This document shows, piece after piece, positions 57,247 through 64,000 of a DNA stretch of 64,000 bases; position 1 is the first letter of the stretch, and each line of letters opens with the position of its first letter. Made by a program: the position numbers and the translations under genes. Under the pieces are notes generated by a model, which was not told the origin of the DNA, did no database searches, and was given only the letters and a program-made list of their open reading frames with translations. The stretch comes from Halobaculum gomorrense (GTDB lineage Archaea > Halobacteriota > Halobacteria > Halobacteriales > Haloferacaceae). Location of the stretch: NCBI RefSeq assembly GCF_900129775.1, contig NZ_FQWV01000011.1, positions 1 to 64,000 of the forward strand, written 5' to 3'.

Positions 57247-58630
57247 TCAACAGGTGCCGCCGAGGTCGGCGGCTTCCGGGTCACCGACCGCCGCCGGCAG
57301 CGTCGCGACGACGGGGTCGAAGCCGCCGGCGTCGTACACGAGCGAGCGCTGGACGAGCCAACGGTCGTAGCTTGCCGGCTGGATCGTCGCCGGCGCGGCC
57401 GGGAACAGGTGCGCACCGGTCGTCGTCCACGACCGCTGGGATATCACCGGACACGACGGCGAGGGGCCCCCGCGGAGCCACGACGCCGTCGGCATCGCGA
57501 ACGCGGAGGAGCAGCGTCGCGTTCGGCGGCCCGCGGTCGGGGAGTGGCCCGAGCGTGAGCGCCCCCGCCGTCGCGTTCCCGACCCGTATCGTCCGCGTGA
57601 GATCGCCGGCGGAGACGGCGATCGTACCGGGCGCGCCCGTCTCGGCGGCGACCGGGACCGTCGCGTCGTCGCCGGGGCCGAGCGTCACCTCTCGCTCGAT
57701 CGTCCGGTTCCCCACGGCGATCGGAAATGTCGCAGTCGTCCGATCGTCCCGGACGTTCTCGACGACGACAGTCGCCTCGACCGTGGAGTTCGGTTCCGCG
57801 CGGGCCGGGACGCGGATCCCGATGACGCGGATCGACCGCGCGTCGATGCCGCCGTCGGGGAGCCGCTCGGCGCGCACGAACTGCGCCTTCCCCGGCGGCT
57901 TCCCGGTCAGCACGCGCGCCGTCGCCAGCGGGACGATCAGCTGGTCGTCGAACGGTCCCGGCGCCGTGAACACGCCGACGACCTCGACGCGTGCGAGTCC
58001 CAGGCGGGTCGTCCCGCCGAACGTCAGGTGGTCGCCGATCTCCACGCCCATCGTCCGCGCGAGGTCGGCGCCGATCACGGCCTCGTCCGCGGTCGCCGGC
58101 CGACGGCCGTCGACGATCGCCGCGTCGGTGACGGAGGCGAACGCGCCGAAGCCGGCGCCGCGGACCGTGTACGTCCGGCTGTCGCGCACCTCGAACAGGA
58201 GCAACTCGGGGCTGGCAGCGATCCCGCGCTCGCGCAGCGCGTCGGCGTACGTCGTCGGGACAGTACTTGCGATCGGGTGGGCGGCTCCCGGCTCGGTGAT
58301 CGTCGCTCCGTCGCCCCCGGAGAGGGGAGCGACGATCCCGGCCATCGACCCCACGAGCACGACGAACGCGACGAACGCTGCGAGCGTCGCGGCCGTCGGT
58401 ACAACCGTCCGCGCGTCGGACACTGTCGGCGCGGCGACCGATCGAAGGCGGGAGAAGCGACCGTCAGTCGATCGGGGACGGGTGGGTGCTTCGGGTTCCA
58501 GTGGTGCACCTCAGACCGCCGGGACGGCAGTGAGCACGCCGCTCGCGCCGCCGAACGCGACGACGGCCGCGAGGATCGGCGCGATGACGCCCGCCGCGGC
58601 CGGCGCACCGCCAATCAGTACGGCGGCCAT
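57247..58630 (-). pseudogene. degraded FtsX/MacB-like permease gene
   Basis: A chain of broken pieces on the minus strand. A 39-codon hydrophobic piece (ATG 58630) ends in TGA at 58511-58513. The same frame continues without a proper start into TDGRFSRLRSVAAPTVSDAR, a transmembrane segment (LAAFVAFVVLVGSMAGIVAP) and an extracytoplasmic domain like the MacB periplasmic core (VIGADLARTMGVEIGDHLTF). Near 57415-57435 the frame runs into Arg-rich noise, while the frame one base away continues sensibly (GAHLFPAAPATIQPASYDRW) to TGA at 57247. The C-terminal FtsX helices are missing. Confidence 0.55.
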
Positions 58631-58847
58631 ACGCGAACCCGCATAGCGGGCTGTTCGCCGGCTCTCTCTCGAGATACGCCTTCGAGATCACTAACAAAGC
58701 GACTTCGGGACGCTTCCGACAGTATTGTGAGACGAGACCGAATCGAGATGCCGCGATCCACCGTCCGGGAGCCTCCCGGGTGCCCCCTGACGGGAGGGCG
58801 CGGGGCGGACAGCCAACGCGTCCCCATCGGCGATCGGAGGGGCGCAG

Positions 58848-59954
58848 ATGGGTAGCGACGCGCCGACGCTGCTGGTGCTCGGGACGCGCCCGGAGGTGAT
58901 CAAGCTCGCGCCCGTCGTCCGGGAGTTGGCCGCCCGCGACCGACCCCATGTGATCGTCCACACGGGCCAGCACTACGACGAGTCGCTGCGCGATGCGATC
59001 TACGACCAACTCGGGCTCCCGGAGCCGGACCACGCGCTCGGCGTCGGCTCCGACTCCCAGGAGCGGCAGGTCGGCGCGATCCTCCAGCGACTGGGCGACG
59101 TGTTCGACGCCGAATCGCCGAGCATCGTGATCGTCCAAGGCGACACCAACTCCGCGCTCGCCGGGGCGCTCGCGGCCGCGAAGCACGGGATCGACGTTGG
59201 TCACGTTGAGGCCGGCCTCCGCTGTGGCGACCGGACGATGCCCGAGGAGCTGAACCGCATCCTGATCGACCACGCCGCCGAGGACCTGTTCGCGCCCACG
59301 GAGGCCGCTCGGCGCAACCTCCGACGGGAGGGCCGCGGCGAGGACTGCCTCGTGACCGGCAACACGATCGTCGACGCGGTCCGCGAGCACGCGTCGCTCG
59401 CGGGCGAGCGCGCGGCCGTCCTCGACGACCTCGGCCTTCGGTCGGGCGAGTACGCGCTGGCGACGCTGCACCGCGCTGAGAACGTCGACGACGCCGACAC
59501 CTTCGGGCAGATCTTGGCGGGCATCGGCCGCTTCACGGCCGAGACCGGGCTGGAGTGCGTCTATCCGGTCCATCCCCGCGCTCGCGACCGGCTCGCGTCC
59601 GGGTCGGTCTCCGTTCCCGAGGGGATCCGCCTCGTCGACCCCGTGGACTTCCTGGGGTTCCTCGCGCTGGAACGGGACGCGGCGGTCGTGTTCACCGACT
59701 CCGGCGGGGTACAGGAGGAGACGTGCATCCTCCAGGTGCCGTGCGTGACCGTCCGCGAGCACACCGAGCGCCCCGAGTCGGTCGCCGTCGGCGCGAACGT
59801 CGTTGCCGGCACCGACCCCGATGCGGTCCACAAGGCCGGCGTGAAGATGCTCGAAACGCCCCGCGAGTGGCCGTGTCCGTTCGGCGCCGGCGACGCCGCC
59901 GAACGGATCGTCTCGGCGCTCGCCGAGCGACGGACCGCGGAGGTGTCGCCGTGA
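58848..59954 (+). CDS. wecB: UDP-N-acetylglucosamine 2-epimerase (non-hydrolysing)
   Basis: A 368-residue cytosolic enzyme converting UDP-GlcNAc to UDP-ManNAc for surface polysaccharide or glycoprotein glycans. LGTRPEVIKLAPVVREL, HTGQHYDESL, VQGDTNSALAGALAA, GHVEAGLRCGD (catalytic acidic residues), PEELNRILIDH and FTDSGGVQEETCILQVPCVT are hallmark segments. Unusually for this window a Shine-Dalgarno-like ggagg lies 7 bases before the ATG. Its TGA overlaps the GTG of the next gene, which should be wecC but is a chimera. Confidence 0.93.
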   Translation: MGSDAPTLLVLGTRPEVIKLAPVVRELAARDRPHVIVHTGQHYDESLRDAIYDQLGLPEPDHALGVGSDSQERQVGAILQRLGDVFDAESPSIVIVQGDTNSALAGALAAAKHGIDVGHVEAGLRCGDRTMPEELNRILIDHAAEDLFAPTEAARRNLRREGRGEDCLVTGNTIVDAVREHASLAGERAAVLDDLGLRSGEYALATLHRAENVDDADTFGQILAGIGRFTAETGLECVYPVHPRARDRLASGSVSVPEGIRLVDPVDFLGFLALERDAAVVFTDSGGVQEETCILQVPCVTVREHTERPESVAVGANVVAGTDPDAVHKAGVKMLETPREWPCPFGAGDAAERIVSALAERRTAEVSP

Positions 59955-60235
59955 CGGTAGCCGGCGGCGACGCAGCCGACGAGCGCGAGAGCGAGCGCGT
60001 GTGCGTCCACAGCCTCGGCCACATCGGGCTGCCGACGGCCGCCGTGCTCGCCGAGGCGGGGTACGACGTGGCCGACGCGACTCAGGACTCCACCGAGACG
60101 ATGCAAGAGCCCTGTCCGGCCGAGGACTGCGACAGCGACCGGGCCCACTACGAGATGATTCCGAAGCCGGGCGGCTCCTACGAGGTTCGGCTGTTCACCT
60201 GCGTCGAGTGCGGCCACAAGTGGCGCGAATCCTGA
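59951..60235 (+). CDS. chimera: wecC 5' end joined to an RNA-polymerase zinc-ribbon (TFS/RPA12-like) 3' end
   Basis: A 94-residue frame starting with GTG inside the wecB stop (GTGA). Residues 17-40 (VCVHSLGHIGLPTAAVLAEA and GYDV) match the N-terminal Rossmann start of UDP-ManNAc dehydrogenase WecC, with the first motif glycine changed to S21. From about residue 40 the sequence becomes ADATQDSTETMQEPCPAEDC and YEVRLFTCVECGHKWRES, the C-terminal zinc ribbon of haloarchaeal TFS/RPA12-like proteins, with Cys 55, 60, 84 and 87. The acidic RSADE-type tip of cleavage-active TFS is replaced by PKPGGS. Nearly 400 residues of WecC are missing, so the dehydrogenase cannot work. Confidence 0.8.
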   Translation: MTVAGGDAADERESERVCVHSLGHIGLPTAAVLAEAGYDVADATQDSTETMQEPCPAEDCDSDRAHYEMIPKPGGSYEVRLFTCVECGHKWRES

Positions 60236-60274
60236 ACCCGTCTCCACCCGATACTCGGCGCATCCTGCCGCCCG

Positions 60275-61114
60275 TCAGCCTCCCTGTTGTCGGAACGCCG
60301 CCACACGCCGAGCGAGTGCACTCCGGAGTTCCTCGATATCGAACGACGTCTCACCGTGGGTGAGCTGCCCGAACTCCGCTCGCAGCGTTCGATCGAGTAC
60401 GGCATCGGTCAGGGTCGACACGCTCGCTGAGGAGTCGCGCTCCTCGACGAGCGACGTGAGCACCTCCGGTGATGCGACCGCCGCGGCGTACTCGTCGACA
60501 GCCGAACGAACCGGCGTAGCCGTTGGCGGCTCACCGGCATACTCGCTCGCCACCGTCAGTGCGACGCCACCGCCCTTTTTACGATACAGTCTCCCGTAGG
60601 CGGTCCCCTCGCCCCACCGTGTCTCAGGTAGTGTGTCCCCACTCGAATCGATATCCCGGACGTGAACTTCCGTATCGAGTGTCGGCAGGGTGGGAACGCC
60701 AAACTCCTCGAATACTCGGTCGAGTTCGTGTGGGAGCAACTCCGCCCCCAGGTAGGCGATATCGACGCCCACGACCGGCGGCGTCTTCGACCAGTCGTAC
60801 CCGCGGTGGCGACGATGGACCGCGAGACAGCCGAGCCTGACCGCTGTCGGGTCATCGACCGCACGTCGGATGGCACTCCGATCGAGGTGCGTCGTGAGCG
60901 CTCGGACGGCAAACCCGAACACCGGAGGGACCTCCTCAGCATCGACCCACCGACGGGGCTGTCCCGACTGTTCGCCGGCAGCGAACGCGAACTGCAGTCG
61001 GTTGGCGGCGTCGAGCCGCGCCTCGAACGGCGTCCCGTCAGGGTACTCGTACAGCCAGACGTGGCCTGTTTCGAGGAACTCCGCACCGACGGAGCTCAGT
61101 CGCGGTGGGACCAT
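60275..61114 (-). CDS. RNA-ligase-like haloarchaeal protein with altered motif I
   Basis: A 279-residue cytosolic protein resembling, from memory, a haloarchaeal group annotated with an RNA ligase domain: ETGHVWLYEYPDGTPFEARL, RRAVDDPTAVRLGCLAVHRR, YDWSKTPPVVGVDIAYLG and YRKKGGGVALTVASEY fall at corresponding places. The nucleotidyltransferase motif I KxDG appears as YPDG, so the adenylated lysine would be missing. ATG at 61114 was chosen over an in-frame GTG eight codons upstream. Convergent with the chimera; DNA here is less GC-biased. Confidence 0.5.
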   Translation of the reverse strand: MVPPRLSSVGAEFLETGHVWLYEYPDGTPFEARLDAANRLQFAFAAGEQSGQPRRWVDAEEVPPVFGFAVRALTTHLDRSAIRRAVDDPTAVRLGCLAVHRRHRGYDWSKTPPVVGVDIAYLGAELLPHELDRVFEEFGVPTLPTLDTEVHVRDIDSSGDTLPETRWGEGTAYGRLYRKKGGGVALTVASEYAGEPPTATPVRSAVDEYAAAVASPEVLTSLVEERDSSASVSTLTDAVLDRTLRAEFGQLTHGETSFDIEELRSALARRVAAFRQQGG

Positions 61115-61333
61115 CTTGTCGACGGGCGGCGCTGGCACAGGCGTCCGATCGCTCGGCCTCGATGTGAAGCTTCGGTCTGCCCCAGCGCGTGTCGATACTG
61201 CAACCAGCGGCGACTACTCGACAGTCGGTGACTCGGTCTCCGGCGGGAGTCCGGCGCCGTGGACGGTCGGTGGGTCGCGATGCGCGGGGCGGTCACCGCG
61301 GTGGATCACCTCGGGACTTGACCCCGAGGCGGT

Positions 61334-64000
61334 TCACAGTGACGTGAACGGGATCGTCGCAAGGCGCTCGGTACTGTATGCGAGTGCCTCCGCTTGCGTG
61401 ATGCCCTCGGGAGTCAACAGGTCGATGACAGACGGTGCGTTCTCGACGGCAGCTGGGTCCGCCCCACCGAAGGTGAACGCGCTCCGGTCGACGGCGACAT
61501 CCCGGAACGAGCCGAAGTCTTCAGACCCGACGATCGGTGCGACAGACACCGACTGGGGATCGAGATCGTCCAGCGTCTCCTTCGGAACTGAGAGGATCGC
61601 CGTGTTTCCGTTCAGGTCGACAAGCCGCTCTGGCGTCCCAAGGTCCGTGCCCTGATCGTCGACGACGGTTGTACTGAAGCCACTGGCCGACACGCGGTAG
61701 TCCCACGCCGAGTCGAACTCCACAGTGGGATTCAGATCGTCCAGTTGCGTTCTCCGGCCACCGTCAATCGAGGTATCGCTGAGGTAGACGACAAAAAAGT
61801 GTGGCGAGAATGCACCGCCGAAGGCGTCATACAGGTTTGCAACCTCGAACGAGAAGAGGTAGGCTGTCTCCGACTCGTACACTGCGAATCGACGCAGGTC
61901 GAACGCGCCATCCTGGAACGCGCCGTCAGTCGGGTAGGTGTACCCCCCTGGCCCGGCATCATCGCCGCTCGGGTCGGTGAATTCGGCGATGAGTTCGCCC
62001 GGATTGATGTCGACCGTTTGGGCGGCCAAGACAGCGCCGTCGTCGTGGTCTAGTAGCTCCACCGAATACGTGCCCCGCGAGGCGATGGTAAACCCGAACG
62101 TGAAGGTCGCATCGCTGCTGTTGGGTGGCAGCCGGACGTTCTCGGTCGCAACGATGTCACCGTCGACACGCAAATCGACGGTGCGGCCGCCGATATAGTC
62201 GCCGCTGTTACTGCCCGTTGCAGTGATGAACGGTTCGTCGAGTGCCGCGTCTGCGGAGATATCGAACGAGAGGTCTTGCTCTGGAAGGGTGTACTCCGGG
62301 AGGTCGTTGATCTCGGTTCCTCGTGCTGGCCGAAGGCGAACGGCTGTCCCGCCGCTGCGGGTCATTGAGGCCAACACAGCGGTGCTCGGGTCGACGATGG
62401 CGACGTCTTTCCTGAGGGCGGTCTGGTCGGCATCGACGCCACCACCGATCCCGTCGGAGTAGATCTCGGCGACGAACTTCGGTCCCTGCGGGGTGCCCTT
62501 TCCGCGACCATTCTCGTCGCGGGGGCTGAGGAACTCCAGCGGGATCTCGATCGCGCGGCCGTTGCCGTCCGACATGGCACCCACGTACCACTCGTCGCCG
62601 TGCTTCCGAGCGGTGACCGAGTACTCGCCGATATCGCCGTCGACGGCGACCGAATCGTCCCACCCGCCAGCCGGGATCGCCTCGATGAACTCGAAGCCAG
62701 TCTTCGTCTCGACGTTTTCGTTCGCGATGTGGGCCTCAGTGAGATCGGTATACGCAGCTGGAAACGGTGCCGGATCTCCCTGCTCGGTCACACCGACCGT
62801 GTTGAGATTCAAGCCACCGACATCACCAGCGAATGTGGTGCCGGAGTCATCGTACTCCAAGATGAACGCGAGTGTGTTGTCCCCCGCTTGGAGATCCACA
62901 TCGAGTGAGTACACGCCCCACTCGTCCCAGCCGGTGGTAAACGAGGGGCTGACTGATTGCGTAGTGCCGTTGACCGACAGCGTGAATTCGGGGCTGCCGT
63001 TGTCGATGACGCGACCGGCGTTTTCATCAGGAGCGCTGGCGTAGCGGAAGTGCAGCGTGTAGGTGCCAGCGCCGTCGAAATCGCGTACCGTGAACGACGC
63101 CGACGCTCCAGACGGCTCGCGGTTGGGGTCCAACGGGACATAGTTCGTTCCGAAGGCGTTGCGCCAGTTGTCCGCGGTGATGATTCCGCCGGTGAGATCG
63201 CCGGATGCGGCCTGGACGTACTCGCCGACCTCGAAGGTCTCATCGACGTATGCTTCGACTCGGTCGGCAGCCATCTGGAGACCCGCATTGTACGAGGGGT
63301 ACATGGCGAGTTGTTTGGCGAGCGTCGTCTGGACCTTCCCGCCGGTGTCCTCGGTGAACTCCAGATCGAAGATTCCCGGCTGGAAGCTGGTCGGCCCGGC
63401 AAGCATGCGCGTATAGGGGAGCGTGACGTGATGGTCACGACCGACATTCGACGCCAGCGCCCCGAAGCCGTCGTACTCTTGGGCTTTCACGACTTCACGC
63501 GCCCCCACGTTGGGGTACGTCCGACGTTCTCCAGTCGGGACGATCCCCTCGTGGATCTCCAGCCACTGTCGTTCACCGGCGGCCTCGGCGATGACGCGTC
63601 GGTTGTGCTTGACCGCGAGCTGGCAGTGCTGGGTGTGTGTCGCCTGTGCCCCAGTACCCTCAAAGCTGAGTCCAGGGTCCGAGACGTAGCCGTTTTTGAT
63701 CGATCGGATGCCCTCAGCCTCGTACCCCTCGAAGATATCATTCTCGAAGACCTCGTCTTCGTAGTTGACGATGTTGCCCGCGGTCTCGTTGTGGATCGTC
63801 ATCTCCACAGGGGCAGAGCGGTCAGCCCCGTAGTCGGTGACCTCCGGGACGTCGAAGTCCGGATAGGAGTCGTTGACGCCCATCTCGAAACCCGTACCAT
63901 CTCCTGGGTACGTGTCCCAGCCCTGGTTCCACCCTTCGGCAAGGACACTCTCGATGCCGTTGTGTGCAGCAAAATGCATGTACCGCTTCATCCGTTCGGT
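61334..64000 (-). CDS. GH97-family glycoside hydrolase, partial (5' end beyond the window)
   Basis: The visible part (about 889 codons) enters in mid catalytic barrel (MKRYMHFAAHNGIESVLAEG). GH97 hallmarks are IHNETAGNIVNYEDEVFEND, HEGIVPTGERRTYPNVGARE and TLPYTRMLAGPTSFQPG; known members are alpha-glucosidases or alpha-galactosidases. A module resembling CBM6/35 (ASFTVRDFDGAGTYTLHFRY to GGLNLNTVGV) is inserted before the rest of the GH97 C-terminal domain. The last 230 residues (EFTDPSGDDAGPGGYTYPTD onward) resemble the C-terminal binding module of glucodextranase. Probably secreted, but the signal peptide lies off the edge. Codon third positions look less G/C-rich than elsewhere. Confidence 0.8.
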   Translation of the reverse strand, partial: TERMKRYMHFAAHNGIESVLAEGWNQGWDTYPGDGTGFEMGVNDSYPDFDVPEVTDYGADRSAPVEMTIHNETAGNIVNYEDEVFENDIFEGYEAEGIRSIKNGYVSDPGLSFEGTGAQATHTQHCQLAVKHNRRVIAEAAGERQWLEIHEGIVPTGERRTYPNVGAREVVKAQEYDGFGALASNVGRDHHVTLPYTRMLAGPTSFQPGIFDLEFTEDTGGKVQTTLAKQLAMYPSYNAGLQMAADRVEAYVDETFEVGEYVQAASGDLTGGIITADNWRNAFGTNYVPLDPNREPSGASASFTVRDFDGAGTYTLHFRYASAPDENAGRVIDNGSPEFTLSVNGTTQSVSPSFTTGWDEWGVYSLDVDLQAGDNTLAFILEYDDSGTTFAGDVGGLNLNTVGVTEQGDPAPFPAAYTDLTEAHIANENVETKTGFEFIEAIPAGGWDDSVAVDGDIGEYSVTARKHGDEWYVGAMSDGNGRAIEIPLEFLSPRDENGRGKGTPQGPKFVAEIYSDGIGGGVDADQTALRKDVAIVDPSTAVLASMTRSGGTAVRLRPARGTEINDLPEYTLPEQDLSFDISADAALDEPFITATGSNSGDYIGGRTVDLRVDGDIVATENVRLPPNSSDATFTFGFTIASRGTYSVELLDHDDGAVLAAQTVDINPGELIAEFTDPSGDDAGPGGYTYPTDGAFQDGAFDLRRFAVYESETAYLFSFEVANLYDAFGGAFSPHFFVVYLSDTSIDGGRRTQLDDLNPTVEFDSAWDYRVSASGFSTTVVDDQGTDLGTPERLVDLNGNTAILSVPKETLDDLDPQSVSVAPIVGSEDFGSFRDVAVDRSAFTFGGADPAAVENAPSVIDLLTPEGITQAEALAYSTERLATIPFTSL

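Follow-up and report, generated by a model that had tools for sequence, protein, structure and literature searches.

Part of the gene reported here can be compared with TFS4 of Sulfolobus, an inhibitor of RNA polymerase whose inhibition needs three lysines at the tip of the hairpin (PMC5715097). In the structure of TFS4 with RNA polymerase, the N-terminal zinc ribbon and the linker contact the lobe and the (upper) jaw (PMC8448823). Moreover, tfs-like genes have multiplied independently in Halobacteria (PMC5715097). As for the joining of broken DNA, wild-type Haloferax volcanii repairs cut plasmids for the most part through microhomology end joining that does not depend on Ku, with microhomologies of 3-5 bp and deletions of 6-977 bp (PMC2700283; for haloarchaeal microhomology end joining see also PMC7521656).

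The window analysed here is a stretch of 64,000 bases (bases 1-64000 of the 65,727-base contig C3) from a draft genome of 3.2 Mb in 16 contigs, which is 99.89% complete. In this window wecB (58848..59954, + strand) encodes a non-hydrolysing UDP-GlcNAc 2-epimerase of 368 aa that is apparently intact, scoring 351 bits against TIGR00236 (cut-off 210) and being 53-59% identical to its best haloarchaeal relatives. The 94-aa reading frame under study (59951..60235, + strand; translation VTVAGGDAADERESERVCVHSLGHIGLPTAAVLAEAGYDVADATQDSTETMQEPCPAEDCDSDRAHYEMIPKPGGSYEVRLFTCVECGHKWRES) is coupled to it as had been predicted, its GTG start overlapping the TGA of wecB, and in Halorussus limi the wecC gene overlaps wecB by stop and start in the same manner. 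Since the open frame overlaps the wecB stop, it could be translated together with wecB. A scan of 58600-60400 for promoters and terminators of the bacterial type, which does not cover archaeal promoters, gave no hit.

The surroundings merit a short description. Just upstream of wecB, on the minus strand (57281-58423), lies a frame with a MacB-type periplasmic core and an arginine-rich low-complexity end, in which no FtsX domain was found and which is possibly a frameshifted ABC permease gene. Beyond the 94-codon frame, a convergent gene (60275..61138, - strand) encodes a 287-aa protein of a haloarchaeal family which has no Pfam or NCBIfam match, is found in 96 of the 170 family genomes, and has a 75% identical second copy in the same genome, on contig C9 (G000:C9:41975-42820). 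Further on, a very large GH97 glycosidase (61334-64000, - strand, continuing to C3:65320; longest frame 1,328 aa) carries GH97_C and glucodextranase C-terminal modules.

A wecC start joined to a TFS-like zinc ribbon

It is confirmed that the frame after wecB is a chimera of the start of wecC and the 3' half of a TFS-like gene. In blastn against haloarchaeal loci, the wecC homologues (L168, L028 and L026) match the frame up to its base 119/120, that is window position 60069/60070, and over 72 bp the remnant shares 83% DNA identity with L168 and L028, stopping at the same place; in a separate blastn against plasmid records, the match to wecB-wecC of Halorussus limi also stops at 60069. From the other side, about 100 TFS-like loci match from base 114 of the frame (60064) to base 285, the stop, with 82-95% DNA identity, and base by base this match is almost absent at 60060-60063 and near-complete from 60064 on, except at 60066. 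The original prediction, which held that the beginning of wecC had been joined in frame near 60066-60072 to a zinc ribbon of the TFS/RPA12 kind, is thus borne out by the two blastn tracts meeting at 60064-60070, with the switch of homology at 60064-60069/60070. Across the join the GC content goes from about 0.73 to 0.65.

The protein matches show the same two origins. The 5' remnant of wecC (59996..60070, + strand) is the start of a Rossmann domain, residues 16-40 (PF03721, residues 16-41), while the TFS-like 3' part (60064..60235, + strand) comprises the end of the linker and the C-terminal zinc ribbon of an RPA12/RPB9/RPC11-type donor of 105 aa. The Pfam matches are UDPG_MGDP_dh_N (residues 16-41) and Zn_ribbon_TFIIS (residues 80-92); neither reaches the gathering score, the domain being a fragment in both cases. 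NCBIfam finds two fragments too, the NAD-binding start of a sugar dehydrogenase and, at the end of the frame, a TFIIS-type ribbon. Against the WecC profiles only residues 16-42 match, with 17.3 bits versus 750 for NF040825 and 16.3 versus 189.8 for TIGR03026; against TIGR01384 (archaeal transcription factor S) the score is 15.7 bits with a cut-off of 64.75, the N-terminal ribbon being absent. The zinc cysteines are C55, C60, C84 and C87, just as predicted, and the first Rossmann glycine is indeed changed (SLGHIG in the chimera versus GLGxxG in all five wecC homologues compared), a change that supports relaxed constraint on the Rossmann motif.

At the junction itself the wecC and TFS-like tracts overlap by 6-7 bp (CGACGTG, 60064..60070, + strand, from the blastn overlap and the codon alignment). 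The wecC-type codons at the break are GAC GTG or GAC GTC, for example GAC GTG TTC in L028 and GGG TAC GAC GTC in L026, and in the codon alignment many TFS-like genes read CCC GAC GTG GCC GAC GCG at this point, so that CGACGTG is plausibly a microhomology common to both parents.

The TFS-like parent family

The donor is a 105-aa haloarchaeal TFS paralogue with two zinc ribbons, annotated as 'DNA-directed RNA polymerase subunit M' or 'RPA12/RPB9/RPC11 RNA polymerase family protein', and no functional study of this family was found in the literature. The predicted TFS/RPA12 origin therefore holds for the type of ribbon, but the donor is a non-catalytic paralogue of TFS and not TFS itself. In fact, the two TFS proteins of the host genome keep the catalytic Asp-Glu (SADESE and GAADEPP), whereas in the donor family as well as in the chimera the hairpin tip reads PKPGGSY without the Asp-Glu pair, from which the family should not stimulate transcript cleavage. 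In alignment the chimera fits the C-terminal ribbon of the family, with C-X4-C, C-X2-C and the conserved PKPGGSYEVR all present, and it keeps the strongly conserved PKPGGSYEVRLFTC stretch; it is without the N-terminal ribbon (CDECGSMMH...CRSC), and the conserved promoter block of the full-length genes, AAGTTAACACATATATCCGAC, is absent upstream of the 94-codon frame. Nor is the ribbon a copy of the genome's own TFS genes, for its nearest intact relative in the host genome is just 42% identical, compared with 88-96% in other genomes. The chimera is the only member of the donor family in its genome. A second near-identical copy was sought genome-wide and none was found, the DNA matches at C16, C6 and C11 being short and that at C16 lying at the start of an unrelated gene.

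Across haloarchaea, copies of the paralogue occur in many genera, often on plasmids and in gene contexts that bear no relation to one another (L053-L132, L149-L167); Haloferax larsenii and Haloferax marinum are among the carriers of a full-length copy, and even among the Halobaculum genomes examined the full-length genes occupy differing contexts. The loci (for example L068:7851-8165 with about 60 upstream bases) carry a conserved promoter-like block, GGAAGTTAACACATATATCCGACAACCGTGTATTCC, many of the genes have a conserved 25-nt 3' tail, and at third codon positions of the C-terminal ribbon the copies agree by 83-86%, versus 74% in a small sample of canonical TFS. This suggests a gene that spread by horizontal transfer as a solo cassette. 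No match to it was found in IMG/VR or phage records, and its matches to defence-system models were negligible. In six loci (L091, L113, L116, L130, L021 and L023) the N-terminal ribbon is apparently broken or missing and the C-terminal part kept, hence losing the first half may be a recurrent event. Being non-catalytic, furnished with its own promoter and very similar between distant haloarchaeal genera, the parent family seems to us more interesting than the fusion.

Uniqueness and origin of the chimera

The fusion was not found in any other genome of the sets searched, namely 60 relatives, 392 genomes of the order, a GTDB-based contig set of 85,000 species and the PLSDB plasmids, where coverage of the query stays below 80% in every record; and among the loci fetched, a degenerate pattern spanning the junction matches only this locus. 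In the 392-genome search the matches listed, other than that of the window itself, start at residue 35-39 with one at 21. A conserved family with this exact arrangement is accordingly rejected and the chimeric reading stands. Two loci matching residues 16-94 (L079 and L093) were considered as relatives of the fusion and dismissed as ordinary 105-aa genes whose N-terminal similarity is due to chance.

As regards the missing pieces, the remaining part of wecC is absent from the host assembly, in keeping with the prediction that WecC had been removed. The search for an intact wecC elsewhere in the genome returned nothing but AglM, a UDP-glucose dehydrogenase, and one further nucleotide sugar dehydrogenase, both on C5, with 33% and 40% identity to wecC. 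Likewise, no TFS-like N-terminal ribbon is left in the genome apart from those of the two DE-bearing TFS genes. An intact wecC beside an intact TFS-like gene, as would have stood there before the event, was seen in no genome; a local tandem ancestor of wecB, wecC and the TFS-like gene was also tried and rejected, with wecB in the flanks (up to 8 kb each) of none of the 80 contig-set TFS-like loci.

We consider it quite probable that the frame is a deletion end-joining scar in a Halobaculum lineage, lying in frame behind wecB and probably doing little. In the mechanism that we infer, wecC and the TFS-like gene would have stood on the same strand, and a deletion, or a deletion after rearrangement, would have joined codon 39/40 of the wecC frame to codon 50 of the TFS-like gene at the 6-7 bp microhomology, much as happens in the microhomology-mediated end joining of haloarchaea. 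Such a deletion would have destroyed both genes, WecC and the only TFS-like copy of the genome, by taking away the first ribbon, the greater part of the linker and the TFS-like promoter, with a 94-codon in-frame scar left behind wecB. Most likely, WecB would stay while its partner dehydrogenase is lost, and the product, if made, would amount to a loose zinc ribbon behind a disordered first half, playing no significant part. Counting against the scar are the undecayed ribbon half, the open frame overlapping the wecB stop and the fact that the arrangement before the deletion was seen in no genome.

The ribbon half appears free of decay when its sequence is set against the family. It departs from the family majority at four positions, and all four residues are present in 12-28% of members; compared with its ten nearest relatives it has on average 4.6 silent and 4.8 replacement differences, a typical N/S ratio (rank 51 of 94). 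In an AlphaFold2 model of the frame, the ribbon has pLDDT of 78-93 (block means) from residue 51 while residues 1-45 are disordered, and the best Foldseek matches of this model are RPA12 and RPB9 chains, though weak. A leftover function of this half, which is predicted to fold, is possible. The young age that we infer for the event would account for the undecayed ribbon equally well, and we read the intact ribbon as reflecting youth rather than selection. Between a decayed junction and a new small protein, the two readings offered by the original prediction, the scar is likelier, although the ribbon half itself has not decayed.

It is unlikely, in our judgement, that the chimera works as a small protein, in the form of one non-catalytic TFS-type C-terminal ribbon that would be made with WecB, enter the RNA polymerase funnel and dampen transcription like a weak TFS4. 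The retained zinc cysteines and conserved stretch, the confident prediction of the ribbon and the lack of excess amino-acid change are in its favour, as is the precedent of Sulfolobus TFS4, a naturally occurring non-catalytic inhibitor that works through the tip of its C-terminal ribbon (PMC5715097). However, the chimera is without the N-terminal ribbon and the larger part of the linker by which TFS4 is anchored to the polymerase (PMC8448823), so that little or no polymerase function is to be expected from it; moreover its tip has one lysine and not three, and it is known from one genome only. A join of this sort falls in frame by chance in one case out of three. For this reason, together with the loss of the N-terminal ribbon and most of the linker, the earlier suggestion that the fusion meaningfully puts a zinc ribbon under the control of a sugar operon is not upheld. 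It seems highly improbable that selection maintains the fusion as a newly arisen protein whose stand-alone non-catalytic ribbon, co-translated with WecB, ties the synthesis of surface sugars to the activity of RNA polymerase.

Whether two unrelated DNA ends were joined by an assembly or library artefact deserves attention too, as the fusion is known from one draft assembly (16 contigs), has no relative, and the GC content shifts at the join. A misjoin should nevertheless leave the missing parts of both genes at other contig ends, but they are nowhere in the 99.9%-complete assembly, which favours a real event; assemblers usually work with overlaps much longer than 6-7 bp, and the join lies inside the contig, some 5.6 kb from its end. 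An assembly join at about 60070, against which the prediction had cautioned, is hence improbable. It would also be conceivable that the TFS-like gene entered wecC as a spreading cassette and was trimmed later, instead of being a neighbour joined by one deletion, in view of the contexts of the full-length genes, unrelated even within Halobaculum, and of their conserved 5' flanks; yet neither the 5' flank nor either of the common 3' flanks is present at the locus, and no remainder of wecC lies downstream, making such an entry very unlikely. The chimera is, as far as the assembly shows, real, resolved to the base, so far confined to a single genome, and ordinary in kind. As a scar it would offer a clean archaeal case of a spontaneous in-frame gene chimera, the raw material for new genes.

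Comparison with known systems

Compared with the 105-aa RPA12/RPB9/RPC11 family or 'RNA polymerase subunit M' (for example WP_222609304.1 of Halobaculum magnesiiphilum), residues 39-94 of the chimera are 77-96% identical in most relatives, right to the stop codon; however, the family proteins have an N-terminal zinc ribbon, a linker and their own promoter, instead of which the chimera has 38 residues from the wecC frame. With WecC, the nucleotide sugar dehydrogenase (M0R89_RS20540 of Halorussus limi), it shares the place after wecB, the stop/start overlap and residues 16-40, whereas it lacks nearly 400 residues along with the catalytic machinery, and its GxGxxG motif reads SLGHIG. Sulfolobus TFS4 is likewise a TFS paralogue whose C-terminal ribbon hairpin is without the catalytic Asp-Glu, but it possesses both ribbons and a tip of three lysines (KKK; PMC5715097), while the chimera has one ribbon and the tip PKPGGSY.
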